This document shows, piece after piece, positions 288-5,910 of a stretch of 64,000 nt of DNA. This DNA comes from Acidobacteriota bacterium (lineage in GTDB: Bacteria; Acidobacteriota; UBA6911; RPQK01; JAJDTT01): assembly GCA_028874215.1 (NCBI GenBank), contig JAPPLF010000006.1, positions 1 to 64,000 on the forward strand. The letters run 5' to 3'. A program made the translations under genes and the position numbers. The stretch's first letter is position 1, and each line of letters starts with the position of its first letter. The notes below the pieces were generated by a model. It was not told where the DNA came from. It searched no databases and saw only the letters and a list, made by a program, of their open reading frames with translations.

Positions 288-487
288 ATGCAGCCCGAGG
301 ACTGCGTCGATGTCGGCCGACACCACATACTCCCGGTATACTCCCTCCGGAACGCCTTGTCCGGCGGGTGCAGGAACGGTCCCGGTACTGGCGGGACTTT
401 CACCACGGACTGCTGAGCGCGAATATCGAGAACTGGTTCGACTGGAGTGAATGTCATGATTCCGGGAAGCGATCCGAAGGAGTTTGA
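288..487 (+). pseudogene. possible frameshifted small gene before the amidase
   Basis: Between the left edge and the amidase, two frames on the plus strand look coding in sequence. An ATG at 288 opens a frame reading MQPEDCVDVGRHHILPVYS. From about 347 a second frame reads PERLVRRVQERSRYWRDFHH and ends at 487, inside the amidase. The second part is rich in W, Y, H and D and has mostly G/C third positions, as real genes do here. One shift near 345 would join the two parts. No family was recognised, and the stretch may be chance. Nothing else is seen in 163-287. Confidence 0.28.
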
Positions 488-1724
488 ATCCCGTTTGGAG
501 GCGGTTCGGGCCTGGGAGCCCCGAGTGCGGGCTCTGGTGGATTGGAATGAGGCGTCCGCCCGGCAGCGCTTTGCCGCGGCCGGGTCCGGCCCGTTGGCGG
601 GATGGTCCCTGGGTGTGAAGGACATCGTGGACGTGGAGGGGCTGGTGACGCGCTCCAACGCCGGCTTCGTTCCCTGGCGCCCCGCCGCCCGGGACGCCGC
701 CGTGGTCGAAACCCTCCGGGCCCGCGGCGCCTTCGTCCTCAGCAAGACGGTGACCACCACGTTCGCCTATTTCGATCCCGGACCCACCGGAAACCCCTGG
801 AACCCGGATCACACGCCGGGCGGCTCCAGCAGCGGCTCGGCCGCCGCCGTCGCCTGCGGGATGATCCGCTTGGGATTGGGGAGTCAAACGGTCGCCTCCG
901 TCAACCGGCCCGCCAGCTATTGCGGGGTCGTGGGCCTGAAGCCTTCCTATGGGCGGATTCCCATCGAAGGCGTTTTCCCCTTCGCTCCCAGCTTCGACAC
1001 CCTCGGGTTCTTTACGGCTGATGTTGCCGATGCCCTGGAGGCATACCAGGTCTTCTCCGGCGAGCCGCCGGCGTCGCCGCCGGCGTCGATCCGGGTCGGC
1101 CTGCTGCCCGACCAGAAGGTGAAGGCCGCCGATCCGGAGATGCTCTCGGCTTTGGCGCAGGTGGGACGCCGGCTGGAATCGGCGGGACTGCAAGTGTCTT
1201 CCGCCGAGCTGCCTTCCTGCTGCGAGGAGGCCCACGACAACCACTGGACGCTGGTGGCGGCCGAAGCTGCGGTGGTGCACGGTGGCCTGTACCGGGTCTT
1301 TGGAGATTCCTATCCTCCCAAATTGAGGGCCTTGATCCGGAGGGGCGCCAGGGTCGCGGCGTCGGAGTTGGAGCGGGTCCGGAGCCACCGGAAACGCGTC
1401 CGGACGGAGGTCGAACGCCTCTTCGGTGAGTTCCATGTCCTCTTGTGTCCTTCGGCGCCGGGAGCGGCGCCGGCCGGAATCGAAGCCACCGGAGACCCTC
1501 GCTTCAGCCTGATCTGGACCTATACGGGGCTGCCCACGCTGACTCTGCCCTATGGCCTCTCCGAGGCGGGACTTCCCCTGGGCTTCCAGTTGGTGGCGCC
1601 CCCGAACCGGGAGGCGGACCTTCTGGCCATCGGCCGAAAAATGGAGGCCGTCTTCGAATTCGCGAGGCGGCATCCCTTGAGGCTTCATGGCGAGACGGCG
1701 GCCCGCCGTAGTGCAGGCGAGTGA
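456..1724 (+). CDS. amidase signature family hydrolase
   Basis: This is a serine amidase of the GatA/AtzF/fatty-acid-amide-hydrolase superfamily, which hydrolyses a C-N amide bond. The Ser-cisSer-Lys triad can be placed: Lys55 in GVKDI, Ser124 at the start of the GGSSSGSAA signature and Ser148 in QTVASVNRP, 24 residues later as in the family. The loop around the nucleophile is unusual, because family members normally read DTGGS where this protein has QTVAS, so the substrate may be uncommon. The ATG at 456 is chosen because GGAG lies eight bases upstream; a GTG at 447 is possible. The stop overlaps the GTG of the next gene. With a DadA-like oxidase and a hydroxyacid dehydrogenase downstream, I infer catabolism of an amide of an amino or hydroxy acid. 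It is not a GatA subunit, because gatB and gatC are absent here. Confidence 0.85.
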   Translation: MIPGSDPKEFESRLEAVRAWEPRVRALVDWNEASARQRFAAAGSGPLAGWSLGVKDIVDVEGLVTRSNAGFVPWRPAARDAAVVETLRARGAFVLSKTVTTTFAYFDPGPTGNPWNPDHTPGGSSSGSAAAVACGMIRLGLGSQTVASVNRPASYCGVVGLKPSYGRIPIEGVFPFAPSFDTLGFFTADVADALEAYQVFSGEPPASPPASIRVGLLPDQKVKAADPEMLSALAQVGRRLESAGLQVSSAELPSCCEEAHDNHWTLVAAEAAVVHGGLYRVFGDSYPPKLRALIRRGARVAASELERVRSHRKRVRTEVERLFGEFHVLLCPSAPGAAPAGIEATGDPRFSLIWTYTGLPTLTLPYGLSEAGLPLGFQLVAPPNREADLLAIGRKMEAVFEFARRHPLRLHGETAARRSAGE

Positions 1725-3373
1725 AGGACACTCCGATTCGGACCATCCGGGCGATCCTCTTCGATTTCGACGGCACTCTCACGCGGCCGGGTTCCCTCGA
1801 CTTCCAACAACTGCGGCAGGAACTGGCGAGTCCGGCGGGCGCCCCCATATTGGAATACATTCAGGGACTGCCTCCGGATCGCCGCCGGCACTGCTTGAGT
1901 GTCCTCGACCGCTTCGAGACGGAGGGCGCGGTCCGGTCGCGGCCCAATGAAGGCGCCGAGGAGTTGATTCGGGAGCTTCAGGCGCGGCGGCTGCCATTGG
2001 CCGTCGTGAGCCGGAACAGCCGCGGTGCGGTCGTCCGTGCGCTGGAAAACTTTCCCTCCATCGGCCTCTCCGATTTCAACGTCATCATCACCCGGGACGA
2101 TGACATCCTGCCCAAGCCGCACCCCGAGGGGATCCGGCTCGCAGCCGGGAAAATGGGAGTCAGTGCCGCCGAGACGCTGGTGGTGGGAGATTTCCACTTC
2201 GACATAACCGCCGGCTTCCGAGCCGGGTCCCCCACGGTCTTCCTCACCAATGGCCGGATGGAGCCGCCCGGGACCCCGGCCCCGGACTACGTGGTCGAGA
2301 ATCTGTCCCAGGTGGGGGCCCTGGTCCGCGAGCGGTCTCCCCTGGCGGCGGGAAAGCTCCCCAACGAACTGCTCGACCGGATCCTGAATGAGCGGGAGCC
2401 GGGTGATCCTTCGCTTCTCATCGGTCCCGGCGTGGGAGAGGATACGGCCGCCGTGGCATTGGGCAGGGAGGATGAGGTCCTGATCCTGAAGTCGGACCCC
2501 ATCACCTTCGCCACCGACGAGATGGCGTACTACACCCTGGTGGTCAACGCCAACGACGTGGCCACGTCCGGGGGCACTCCCCGCTGGCTGTTGACAACGC
2601 TCCTGTTCCCTCCGGGAACCACCGGCGAACAGGTCAAACGGCTCATGGCGAGTCTCCGGCGCTGGTGCGGCCGGCTGGGAGTGACTCTCTGCGGAGGGCA
2701 CACCGAGGTCACCGACTCGGTCACCAAACCGGTGGCGGTCGGGCAGATGGTGGGAACCGCCACCCGGAGCCGGCTCGTGGACAAGAGCCGGATGCGCCCC
2801 GGTGACCAGATCCTGTTGACCAAGGCATTGGCGGTGGAGGGGACTGCCATCCTGGCCCGTGAATTCCGTCCGGCCCTGGAAAGCCTGGGAGTTCCCGCCG
2901 ACGAGGTCTCCCGTTGCGAACAATTCCTCTTCTCCCCCGGAATCAGCGTCCTGGAGGAGGCGGAGACGGTTCTGGAGTCGGGAGGAGTTTCGGCTCTCCA
3001 CGACGTGACCGAAGGAGGAGCGGCGACGGCCCTGGACGAATTGACCCGTGCCGGGCGCCATCGCATTCGCGTCCGGGCCGACCGGATTCCCGTCTTCCCC
3101 GAGACGGCCCGGATTTGCCGCCTGCTGGGCATCGATCCCCTGGGGCTCATCGGCTCCGGCAGCCTCATCATCGTCTGCCGGGCCGATTCGCGCCAGCGGC
3201 TGGAGGGAGCACTGGAAGACCGGGGCATTCAGGCCACCTGGGTGGGGGAGGTTCTGGGTCCCGGTGCCGGAGTCGAAGCGGTGGACGGCGAAGGCGAATC
3301 CCTCCCCTGGCCTCATTTCGAGACCGACGAACTGCCGCGAGCCATCGAGAAACTGCAGCGGATCAAGATCTGA
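1721..3373 (+). CDS. HAD phosphatase fused to AIR-synthase/HypE-like domain
   Basis: This is a 550-residue two-domain protein. Residues 1-200 are a HAD-superfamily hydrolase with all four motifs: DFDGT at 15-19, a motif II serine in VVSRNS, a lysine in PKPHPEG and GDFHFD as motif IV. Residues from about 215 resemble PurM/HypE/SelD-type ATP-binding enzymes, with GVGEDTAAV, NDVATSGGTP and GGHTEVTD. HypE-type domains use ATP to activate or dehydrate an amide or carboxamide; HAD domains remove phosphate. The GTG start overlaps the amidase stop (GTGA), so the two are probably translationally coupled. I do not know this fusion as a named enzyme, and its substrate is not evident from sequence. Confidence 0.8.
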   Translation: MKDTPIRTIRAILFDFDGTLTRPGSLDFQQLRQELASPAGAPILEYIQGLPPDRRRHCLSVLDRFETEGAVRSRPNEGAEELIRELQARRLPLAVVSRNSRGAVVRALENFPSIGLSDFNVIITRDDDILPKPHPEGIRLAAGKMGVSAAETLVVGDFHFDITAGFRAGSPTVFLTNGRMEPPGTPAPDYVVENLSQVGALVRERSPLAAGKLPNELLDRILNEREPGDPSLLIGPGVGEDTAAVALGREDEVLILKSDPITFATDEMAYYTLVVNANDVATSGGTPRWLLTTLLFPPGTTGEQVKRLMASLRRWCGRLGVTLCGGHTEVTDSVTKPVAVGQMVGTATRSRLVDKSRMRPGDQILLTKALAVEGTAILAREFRPALESLGVPADEVSRCEQFLFSPGISVLEEAETVLESGGVSALHDVTEGGAATALDELTRAGRHRIRVRADRIPVFPETARICRLLGIDPLGLIGSGSLIIVCRADSRQRLEGALEDRGIQATWVGEVLGPGAGVEAVDGEGESLPWPHFETDELPRAIEKLQRIKI

Positions 3374-3489: not shown

Positions 3490-4740
3490 ATGACGGAGAA
3501 AACCGACGTTCTCGTCATCGGCGGCGGCGTCATCGGCGTCTGCTCCGCTTACTTCCTGGCACAGCGGGGATGCGCCGTCACCCTGGTCGAAAGGGGAGAG
3601 ATCTGCTCCGGGAGTTCCTACGGGAATTCCGGGCTGATCGTCCCCAGCCACTCGGTCCCCCTGGCCGCTCCGGGGGTGTTGAGCCAGGGTCTTCGATGGC
3701 TGCTGGACCCGGTCAGCCCCTTCTACATCAAGCCCCGCCTCGACCTCGACCTGGTGCGCTGGCTCTGGTGGTTTCAACAGGCCTCCCGGGACGAACCAAT
3801 GAGGAAGGGGATCCCCGTTCTCCGGGATCTCTCGAATGCCAGCCTGGAATTGTATCGGGGCCTGGCGGACCGGGGAGAACTGGAGTTCGGTTTCCGGCAA
3901 AAGGGGTGGCTGCAGATCTTCCGGTCCGAGCGGCTTCTGGCCAAAGCCCTGGCGGAAGCCCGGCTCCTGAGGGAGTTCGGTCTCGAATCCACTCTGCTGG
4001 ACACGGTTCGGGTGCGTGAGATGGAGCCGAACGTGCAGCCGTCCATCATCGCCGGAATCCACTTTCCCGAAGACGCCCATCTGATCCCGCACCGGTTCGT
4101 CCACCAGATGGCGGATGCCGCCCGCCGCGCGGGGGCGGTCTTCCGGACCGGGACCGAAGTGCTGGAAATGAAGACCTCCAGGACGCGGGTCACGCGGGTG
4201 GTGACCACGAGAGGGGACCTGCGGCCGGAACAGGTGGTGCTCGCCGCCGGATCCTGGTCTCCCCTGGTGGCTCGAACCGTGGGGCTGGATGTCCCCGTGC
4301 AGCCCGCCAAGGGGTACAGCGTGACGGTCAGGGCTCCCGCCAACACGCCACGGGTCCCCTTGATGCTGGCGGAGGCCAAGGTGGCCGCCACTCCCATGGG
4401 AGACAAGCTGCGCTTCGGCGGAACCTTGGAACTGGCCGGTCTGGACCTTTCGGTGAACCTTCCCCGTGTCCAGGCTATCCTGCGGGCCGCCCGGACGCAT
4501 CTGGCCGGCATGAAGGAGTTGGACCTGCACGAAATCTGGAGAGGCCTGCGGCCGCTGACTCCGGACGGGCTTCCCTTCATCGGGCGGACCCGGAAGTGGA
4601 ACAACCTGTTGTTGGCGACGGGCCACTCCACCATCGGCATCTCTCTGGGGCCCGTCACGGGAAAACTGATCTCGGAAATCGCCGCCGGGGAGGGCGCCGG
4701 CCAGGACCTGTCCCGCCTGGAACCGGAGCGCTTCCATTGA
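3490..4740 (+). CDS. FAD-dependent D-amino-acid dehydrogenase-like oxidoreductase
   Basis: This is a 416-residue DAO/DadA-type flavoprotein. The dinucleotide-binding GGGVIG (11-16) is near the N-terminus, followed by the ERG segment after the second strand, and the C-terminal FAD-contacting stretch LRPLTPDGLPFIG is present. The family oxidises amino acids (D-amino acids, glycine, sarcosine or hydroxyproline) to imino acids and passes electrons to quinone or oxygen. The length fits DadA. The ATG at 3490 is preceded by GAAAGGCGG. It lies 116 bases after the HAD fusion gene and 44 bases before the dehydrogenase, in the same direction, so a shared catabolic operon is likely. The exact substrate is unknown. 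Confidence 0.8.
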   Translation: MTEKTDVLVIGGGVIGVCSAYFLAQRGCAVTLVERGEICSGSSYGNSGLIVPSHSVPLAAPGVLSQGLRWLLDPVSPFYIKPRLDLDLVRWLWWFQQASRDEPMRKGIPVLRDLSNASLELYRGLADRGELEFGFRQKGWLQIFRSERLLAKALAEARLLREFGLESTLLDTVRVREMEPNVQPSIIAGIHFPEDAHLIPHRFVHQMADAARRAGAVFRTGTEVLEMKTSRTRVTRVVTTRGDLRPEQVVLAAGSWSPLVARTVGLDVPVQPAKGYSVTVRAPANTPRVPLMLAEAKVAATPMGDKLRFGGTLELAGLDLSVNLPRVQAILRAARTHLAGMKELDLHEIWRGLRPLTPDGLPFIGRTRKWNNLLLATGHSTIGISLGPVTGKLISEIAAGEGAGQDLSRLEPERFH

Positions 4741-4784: not shown

Positions 4785-5780
4785 ATGCCGAAAGTAATGA
4801 TCACCCCCACCAGCATGCAGCATCGGCCTTCTCCCTTCGCCGGCCTTCTGGAACGGGCCGGCTTCGAGGTGCGCTATCCCACCAACCCGGAATTGGTCAT
4901 GGGTCTGACGGGTGACGAGGAGACCATCCGTCAGTTGAAGGGGATCGAGGCCATCATCGCGGGCGGGGAGTATTTCACGCCTGCGGTCCTGGACGGTCTA
5001 CCGGAACTGCGAGTCATCGCCCGGGCCGGCGTCGGTTTCGACCGGGTGGACGTCGCCGCCGCGACCCGGCGGGGAATCCCGGTCACGGTGACGCCCTCGG
5101 CCAATCATGAGGCGGTGGCCGAGCACGCCATCACCCTGCTGCTGGCCACGGTCCGCTCCATCGTCTCCACTTCCAGGCAGATCGCGGCGGGACGATGGCC
5201 GCGCCGGACGCTGGGCACGGTGAGAGAAAAAACCTTGGGAATCGTGGGGCTGGGGCGGATCGGCCGCAGCACGGCGGTCCGGGCCATCCCGCTGGGCATG
5301 AAGGTGGTGGCCCACGAGATCTTCCCGGACCAGGAATTCGTTCGCGCCCACGGCATCGAACTGCTGAGTTTCGAACAACTCCTGGAGAGGTCGGATTTCA
5401 TCACCCTGCACTGTCCGCTGACGGACCGGACCCGGCACTTCTTCGGGAAGGAGGCGTTCGATCGAATGAAGCCGGGGAGCATTCTCATCAACACGGCTCG
5501 AGGTCCGTTGGTCAATGAGACGGACTTGCTGGAAGCCTTGAGGTCGGGGCGGCTTCGGGCTGCCGGCCTCGACGTCATGGAGCAGGAGCCGCCGGATCCG
5601 GACAATCCCCTGCTGCGGATGGCCAACGTTCTGGTCACGTCTCACCAGGCCGGCGGCGACGAGGCCTCGGTGATCGCCATGGGGATGGAAGCCGCCGAGT
5701 GCGTCATCGCCCTGTGGCAGGGAGATTGGCCCGAAGGGGCGGTGATCAACGACGAATTGAAGTCCGGCTGGAAGTGGTGA
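4785..5780 (+). CDS. D-2-hydroxyacid dehydrogenase (SerA-like, short form)
   Basis: This is an NAD-dependent D-isomer-specific 2-hydroxyacid dehydrogenase of 331 residues. The Rossmann motif GLGRIG lies at 155-160 and the catalytic set is Arg239 (TARGP), Glu266 (DVMEQEP) and His287 (TSHQAGG). It lacks the ACT and intervening domains of full-length phosphoglycerate dehydrogenase, so it may be a 3-phosphoglycerate, glyoxylate or other 2-oxoacid enzyme. A GAGG motif lies about nine bases before the ATG. It is the last gene of the amidase operon, and palindromic repeats begin within a few bases of its stop. Confidence 0.85.
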   Translation: MPKVMITPTSMQHRPSPFAGLLERAGFEVRYPTNPELVMGLTGDEETIRQLKGIEAIIAGGEYFTPAVLDGLPELRVIARAGVGFDRVDVAAATRRGIPVTVTPSANHEAVAEHAITLLLATVRSIVSTSRQIAAGRWPRRTLGTVREKTLGIVGLGRIGRSTAVRAIPLGMKVVAHEIFPDQEFVRAHGIELLSFEQLLERSDFITLHCPLTDRTRHFFGKEAFDRMKPGSILINTARGPLVNETDLLEALRSGRLRAAGLDVMEQEPPDPDNPLLRMANVLVTSHQAGGDEASVIAMGMEAAECVIALWQGDWPEGAVINDELKSGWKW

Positions 5781-5783
5781 CGG

Positions 5784-5910
5784 GAGCGGCGGTTTCCCAC
5801 CGGGGCGGCGGTTTCCTAACCGCCGATTCCCACACCGGGGCGGCGGTTTCCCAACCGCCCATTCTTGGAACATTGCGAAATGTGTCCCGCGGGCGATTTG
5901 GAAATCGCCC
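5784..5910. repeat. interspersed palindromic repeat cluster, short form
   Basis: The gap between the dehydrogenase and the exporter gene holds three copies of a hairpin module built on CGGCGGTTTCC (about 5787-5806 degenerate, 5806-5825 near perfect, 5841-5860 with one end mismatch). One copy of a second hairpin (5891-5910) reads GGGCGATTTGGAAATCGCCC. Both modules recur in the 86-bp tandem array at 48449-48870, in the same order and orientation. It is an intergenic REP-like element. It may also end transcription of the upstream operon, but no T-tract is present. Confidence 0.8.

Follow-up and report, generated by a model that had tools for sequence, protein, structure and literature searches.

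A conserved fusion of a HAD subfamily IA domain and an uncharacterised AIRS-family domain in Acidobacteriota and Desulfobacterota

Domain organisation of the fusion protein

The window, i.e., the whole 64,000-nt stretch of an Acidobacteriota genome analysed here, carries at 1721–3373 a GTG-initiated open reading frame of 550 residues, flanked by an amidase gene and a gene for a DadA-like dehydrogenase (Table 1). The protein is laid out as a HAD subfamily IA phosphatase domain (residues ~9–200; activity predicted) followed by a complete AIRS/AIRS_C module (~207–546). Pfam placed HAD_2 (1.3e-19) and Hydrolase (1.5e-19) at residues 9–173, AIRS (2.4e-14; 54.1 bits against a curated cut-off of 24) at residues 239–346, and AIRS_C (7.2e-17; 62.4 bits against 23.1) at residues 359–515. 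The original prediction, a HAD half joined to an AIRS-type ATP-binding half, agrees with these and with the NCBIfam matches, and alignment of the second half to a non-AIRS family, which it had named as grounds for refutation, did not occur. All six motifs that it described as kept were found in the protein: DFDGT (15–19), KPHPEG (132–137), and GDFHFD (156–161) in the HAD half, and GVGEDTAAV (237–245), NDVATSGG (278–285), and GGHTEVTD (325–332) in the AIRS half.

Table 1. Genes, domains, and key residues at the fusion locus.
Feature	Position (window nucleotides, or protein residues)	Strand	Basis and remarks
Amidase (PF01425)	447..1724	+	Stop overlaps fusion GTG; neighbour kept in genus only
HAD-AIRS fusion gene	1721..3373	+	GTG start, 550 aa ORF; family matches; relatives
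HAD subfamily IA half (residues ~9-200)	1745..2320	+	D15/D17, S97-R98-N99, K132, D157/D161; Pfam, alignment, model
AIRS half (residues ~207-546)	2339..3358	+	Pfam, alignment, AIRS-tree clade; AIRS_N modelled poorly, AIRS_C well
AIRS half key residues	G211-K212 loop, D241, D259-P260, N278-D279, GGHTE 325-329, E373	+	Alignment
AIRS half key residues, continued	H427-D428-x-T430-E431-G432-G433, S479-G480, D536-E537	+	Alignment
DadA-like FAD-dependent amino acid dehydrogenase	3490..4740	+	Neighbour kept in genus only
D-isomer 2-hydroxyacid dehydrogenase	4785..5780	+	Neighbour in genus

The HAD subfamily IA motifs occur in the expected order (DxD at D15/D17, then S97, K132, and D157/D161) and are kept in the relatives. 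AlphaFold2 modelling (mean pLDDT 73.9, pTM 0.45) gave pLDDT values of ~90 over most of the HAD half and modelled most of AIRS_C well; AIRS_N was mostly below 50, and at this pTM no domain arrangement was obtained. A Foldseek search with the model matched the HAD half to Pseudomonas fluorescens structures (3r09, 2ybd, and 3m9l) and the AIRS half to HypE, then ThiL and SelD, in agreement with the sequence search. These structures represent the HAD hydrolase of P. fluorescens Pf-5, which belongs to the same subfamily (2.2e-22 over residues 9–176) and has the TRN and PKPHP signatures; unlike the fusion, it is a stand-alone protein, and we know of no function for it.

Distribution of the fusion

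A full-length HAD–AIRS fusion was found in 10 of 396 Acidobacteriota genomes, four of them in the window’s genus (itself included; 83–100% identity) and six in other genera (51–56%), and in 5 of 297 Desulfobacterota genomes (G396, G438, G564, G565, and G613; 49–53%). It is also present in four named Desulfobacterales/Deltaproteobacteria MAGs (L036, L037, L038, and L040), a list that overlaps with the Desulfobacterota count since L036 is G396. The counts leave out G509, whose match starts at residue 78 near a contig start and is unseen by the HAD profile. Outside the window’s own genome, identity ranges from 49 to 94%. In the AIRS tree, these main-type fusions form one clade across both phyla (20 rows, comprising 18 fusions and two incomplete sequences; support 100/100).

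Both domains thus recur in the same order in other genera, and the finding of the fusion in a single genome only, the other ground for refutation named in the original prediction, is excluded. The fusion is a real gene and not an assembly chimera, because it recurs unbroken in three further members of the window’s genus (83–94%) and in additional families and phyla. The original prediction knew of no characterised enzyme with this order, and searches of an open-access literature library likewise found none described. We regard the protein as a conserved new arrangement of two known superfamilies, and we know of no function for either the AIRS family or the HAD subfamily.

Partial loss was seen in one family. 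In G012, the fusion has decayed to a HAD remnant interrupted by an in-frame stop (L063, 9447–9884), at the place where G006 of the same genus has it intact (L050, 8845–10500), and the G012 genome gave no AIRS match at E 1e-18. G009, of the same family as these two, has the HAD alone at the same place. The AIRS half can therefore be lost.

Genomic context

In all four loci of the genus (the window, L033, L034, and L035), the fusion lies between the amidase and DadA-like genes, all on the same strand. The GTG start of the fusion (1721–1723) overlaps the TGA stop of the amidase (1722–1724), which makes the translational coupling put forward in the original prediction plausible from sequence. Such an arrangement would be expected if the amidase, the fusion, and the DadA-like enzyme formed one degradation route, with an amide as the substrate of the AIRS half. 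However, neither neighbour cluster occurs within five genes of the other main-type fusions (0 of 14 loci), which adjoin unrelated genes. The proposed reading of constant amidase and DadA-like neighbours as the sign of a pathway thus failed outside the genus; an amide pathway was rejected as a general role, and we consider it very improbable.

Elsewhere, the fusion adjoins genes for a LeuA-like synthase (L050), an MFS transporter (L135), a methyltransferase (L046), or a luciferase-like monooxygenase (L047), and a PLP decarboxylase and an Lrp regulator lie beside it in L036, L037, L038, and L040. HlyD/MacB, Ddl, LolA, and Peptidase_MA genes are recurrent neighbours in some lineages only. With genes called by a simple codon-score script, some of whose calls are wrong or missing, the fusion neighbours varied from lineage to lineage, and those of the stand-alone HAD did not converge. 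A radical-SAM/B12 gene near several fusions was dropped as a candidate partner because its copies belong to different subfamilies, mostly with 22–29% identity between lineages (41–43% for L042 versus L048).

The planctomycete stand-alone HAD gene (L042, L240, L242, and L249) is followed by a gene of ~180–225 codons; those of L240, L242, and L249 form one cluster, and the two tested (L042 and L242) are LolA-like. In the window, short GC-rich repeats of the gggcggcggtttcc type, perhaps a REP-like element, occupy positions 5780–5910 between the 2-hydroxyacid dehydrogenase gene and an ABC transporter gene.

Position of the AIRS half within its superfamily

The window protein scored 97.1 bits with the NCBIfam model for HypE (TIGR02124), 77.2 with that for ThiL, and 70.4 with that for SelD, all below the respective cut-offs of 251.6, 184.15, and 125. 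HypE is the nearest characterised relative by score, as the original prediction had suggested. A superfamily tree was built with E. coli and local rows of HypE (8), ThiL (8), SelD (5), and PurM (1). The window’s AIRS family (28 rows) formed its own clade (96/95) outside those of HypE (100/100), ThiL (98/99), and SelD (100/99); a more distant AIRS group B (11 rows) joined it weakly (83/71), and the one PurM row, from E. coli, sat on a very long branch. By its sequence, the AIRS half represents an uncharacterised family apart from HypE, ThiL, and SelD, which may be the one labelled PurM-like1 (CDD cd06061).

Within the close family, G211-K212, D241, D259-P260, N278-D279, GGHTE, E373, HDxTEGG, S479-G480, and D536 are invariant, counted over the rows with a letter at the site (61 to 65 of the 65 close-family rows), except for G432 (64/65). 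The fusion has in common with HypE, the carbamoyl dehydratase of hydrogenase maturation, the AIRS fold and the conserved acidic residues; it differs in having GGHTE instead of GGDTK, H427 instead of Arg, and a HAD domain attached. The C-terminal cysteine of HypE is the residue that is carbamoylated. It is absent here, the window protein ending in LQRIKI where E. coli HypE ends in PRIC; three members of the AIRS family have a Cys within the last eight residues, none with the PRIC end. In SelD (selenide, water dikinase), the catalytic Cys/Sec sits in a Gly-rich loop. The Gly-Lys loop of the fusion aligns by eye with the GCGCKI loop of E. coli SelD and the GGHT motif is common to both, but the loop of the window protein (AAGKLP) has no Cys. 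ThiL (thiamine-phosphate kinase) is comparable in its AIRS fold and its ATP phosphotransfer, yet the window genome has its own ThiL in addition to the fusion.

With HypE as the best-scoring characterised family and the best structural match, the AIRS half might belong to a HypE paralogue, i.e., a carbamoyl or other nitrile-forming dehydratase with a phosphatase attached. The missing terminal cysteine and the separate HypE clade make this quite unlikely. In addition, no HypE was found in the window genome, since the fusion, ThiL, and SelD account for all three of its AIRS-type matches. Identity with HypE itself was rejected on the sub-threshold score, the missing cysteine, and the clade. The chemistry originally proposed, in which ATP is used on an amide or carboxylate, matches PurM and HypE and is no more than a candidate for this family, a clade of its own that lacks the HypE terminal cysteine and has the GGHT motif in common with SelD.

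Repeated linkage of the HAD and AIRS families

The two families are also linked in other ways. A reversed AIRS–HAD fusion in one frame was detected in four Acidobacteriota genomes (L068–L071) and in one planctomycete (L237), and these five form one clade in both the HAD and the AIRS trees. L132 is a separate HAD–AIRS fusion, whose closest kin in both trees (HAD 99/97, AIRS 100/100) is L144, in which the two domains are encoded by separate genes with a 4 bp overlap. In L133 and L159, the HAD gene lies directly upstream of the AIRS gene on the same strand. In all linkage classes, the HAD partners have T(R/N)N and RD..KP signatures in common, the Pro of KP following a one-residue gap in part of them; both signatures are absent from the E. 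coli controls Gph and HxpB.

In AU tests on groups named after the first tree had been seen, a single clade of all fusions (p 8e-6) and a clade of L132 with the main type (p 2e-6) were rejected, and a joint AIRS clade of the main and reversed types was not (p 0.22). Even if the main and reversed AIRS halves form one clade, the change of order still requires a second rearrangement. With L132 outside the main clade, the reversed order, and the adjacent gene pairs, these sequence-based tests force the view that the link arose more than once, with at least two origins; given the reversed order, three origins are likely.

Co-occurrence of the separate genes was assessed with the window protein as query at E-value cut-offs of 1e-18 or 1e-20, at which the distant HADs of L133, L144, and L159 are missed; counts were entered by hand after exclusion of matches resembling HypE and, for Desulfobacterota, of a few that were weak or partial. 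In Planctomycetota, where two distant AIRS relatives (G730 and G792) were not counted as AIRS, HAD was present in 15 of 19 AIRS genomes versus 30 of 227 others (Fisher p 2e-9, kinship ignored). The table comprises 15 genomes with both families (one of them fused), 4 with AIRS only, 30 with HAD only, and 197 with neither, HAD thus occurring in 45 of 246 genomes overall; without the fused genome, p is 9e-9. There was no clear co-occurrence in the 378 Acidobacteriota without the fusion (both 4, AIRS only 34, HAD only 12, neither 328; p 0.065), which include 38 AIRS and 16 HAD genomes, or in Desulfobacterota (both 0, AIRS only 58, HAD only 7, neither 225; p 0.35). Many genomes carry only one of the two families, so each can at times do without its partner. 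The decayed fusion of G012 and the lack of convergence of the gene neighbours on one pathway also count against the link.

This raises the question of whether the fusions arose by neutral joining of adjacent genes whose products act on unrelated substrates. The frequent occurrence of each family alone and the two phyla without clear co-occurrence would fit such a view. Nevertheless, the same HAD subfamily and AIRS family were fused more than once and in both orders, in addition to the adjacent pairs, and we consider neutral joining unlikely.

Proposed function

Because the same two parts have been joined or paired more than once and in both orders, they probably share a small-molecule substrate or a pathway. 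We favour, at a probability of roughly 60%, a bifunctional and probably cytosolic metabolic enzyme with both halves on one route. The AIRS half would bind Mg-ATP through the conserved acidic residues and transfer the gamma-phosphate to a small molecule, thereby activating it. The HAD half would dephosphorylate a metabolite of this route, most likely a precursor or product handled by the AIRS half, as in other HAD–enzyme fusions; either step could come first. A broader proposal, which we hold tentatively as somewhat short of probable, is that the AIRS half belongs to a branch of the superfamily with a new function and makes, together with the HAD half, an undescribed two-step route in Acidobacteriota, Desulfobacterota, and Planctomycetota, joined separately and in both orders.

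Precedents exist for pairings of this kind. MtlD of Acinetobacter (PDB 7ocn), a Foldseek match via the HAD part, is likewise bifunctional with a HAD phosphatase domain, although its partner is a dehydrogenase; the HAD domain of MtlD acts on its partner’s product. Crenarchaeal SelD-like proteins are described as fused to an acylphosphatase-like domain, and the authors of that study infer a functional link (PMC4210487). As described there, that fusion also combines an AIRS-superfamily member with a phosphatase-type domain, but the AIRS family and the phosphatase fold are different and the hosts are archaea. By analogy, both are precedents for the pairing and not members of the window’s family.

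Key ATP-dependent reactions in the metabolism of purines, thiamine, selenium, and the hydrogenase cofactor are catalysed by AIRS enzymes. A separate AIRS family, present here in three phyla and with repeated links to a single HAD subfamily, hints at a missing metabolic reaction; although the parts are ordinary, the hint is strong and can be tested. The fusion offers a ready object for assays, with both steps in one protein.

Cofactor genes near AIRS relatives

Stand-alone AIRS relatives are located beside FolP (L059, L060, and L073) and, in L158 and its cluster mates, beside QueD/PTPS–FolE2. In the Desulfobacterota loci L146, L158, L165, and L170, the stand-alone AIRS gene directly follows a FolE2-cluster gene (4/4), with a QueD/PTPS-cluster gene upstream in three. 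Group B AIRS genes lie within thiamine runs, AIRS–TenA–ThiE–ThiD in L169 (4388–7665) and AIRS–ThiD in L134 (6501–8257), and both genomes have a canonical ThiL elsewhere. These pterin and thiamine neighbours suggested cofactor kinases, and with ThiL among the nearest characterised families, the AIRS half could be a stand-in for a missing ThiL or FolK. The normal enzymes are present, however: FolK in 78 of 80 genomes, including all fusion genomes tested, and ThiL above the cut-off in 66 of 80, including the window genome (238.9 bits), while 10 of the 14 without ThiL have thiamine pyrophosphokinase. Replacement of FolK or ThiL was accordingly rejected as a general role and seems hardly credible.

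Among the 40 genomes tested for both, ThiL and thiamine pyrophosphokinase were apparently mutually exclusive, all ten pyrophosphokinase genomes (G109, G223, G373, G455, G417, G535, G695, G611, G473, and G436) being without ThiL over the cut-off. The SelD of the window genome (G000, contig C10; L201) occupies the C-terminal end of a reading frame with >700 codons and is thus probably fused to another domain. Several SelD-type matches in relatives carry an in-frame TGA, as a selenocysteine SelD would.
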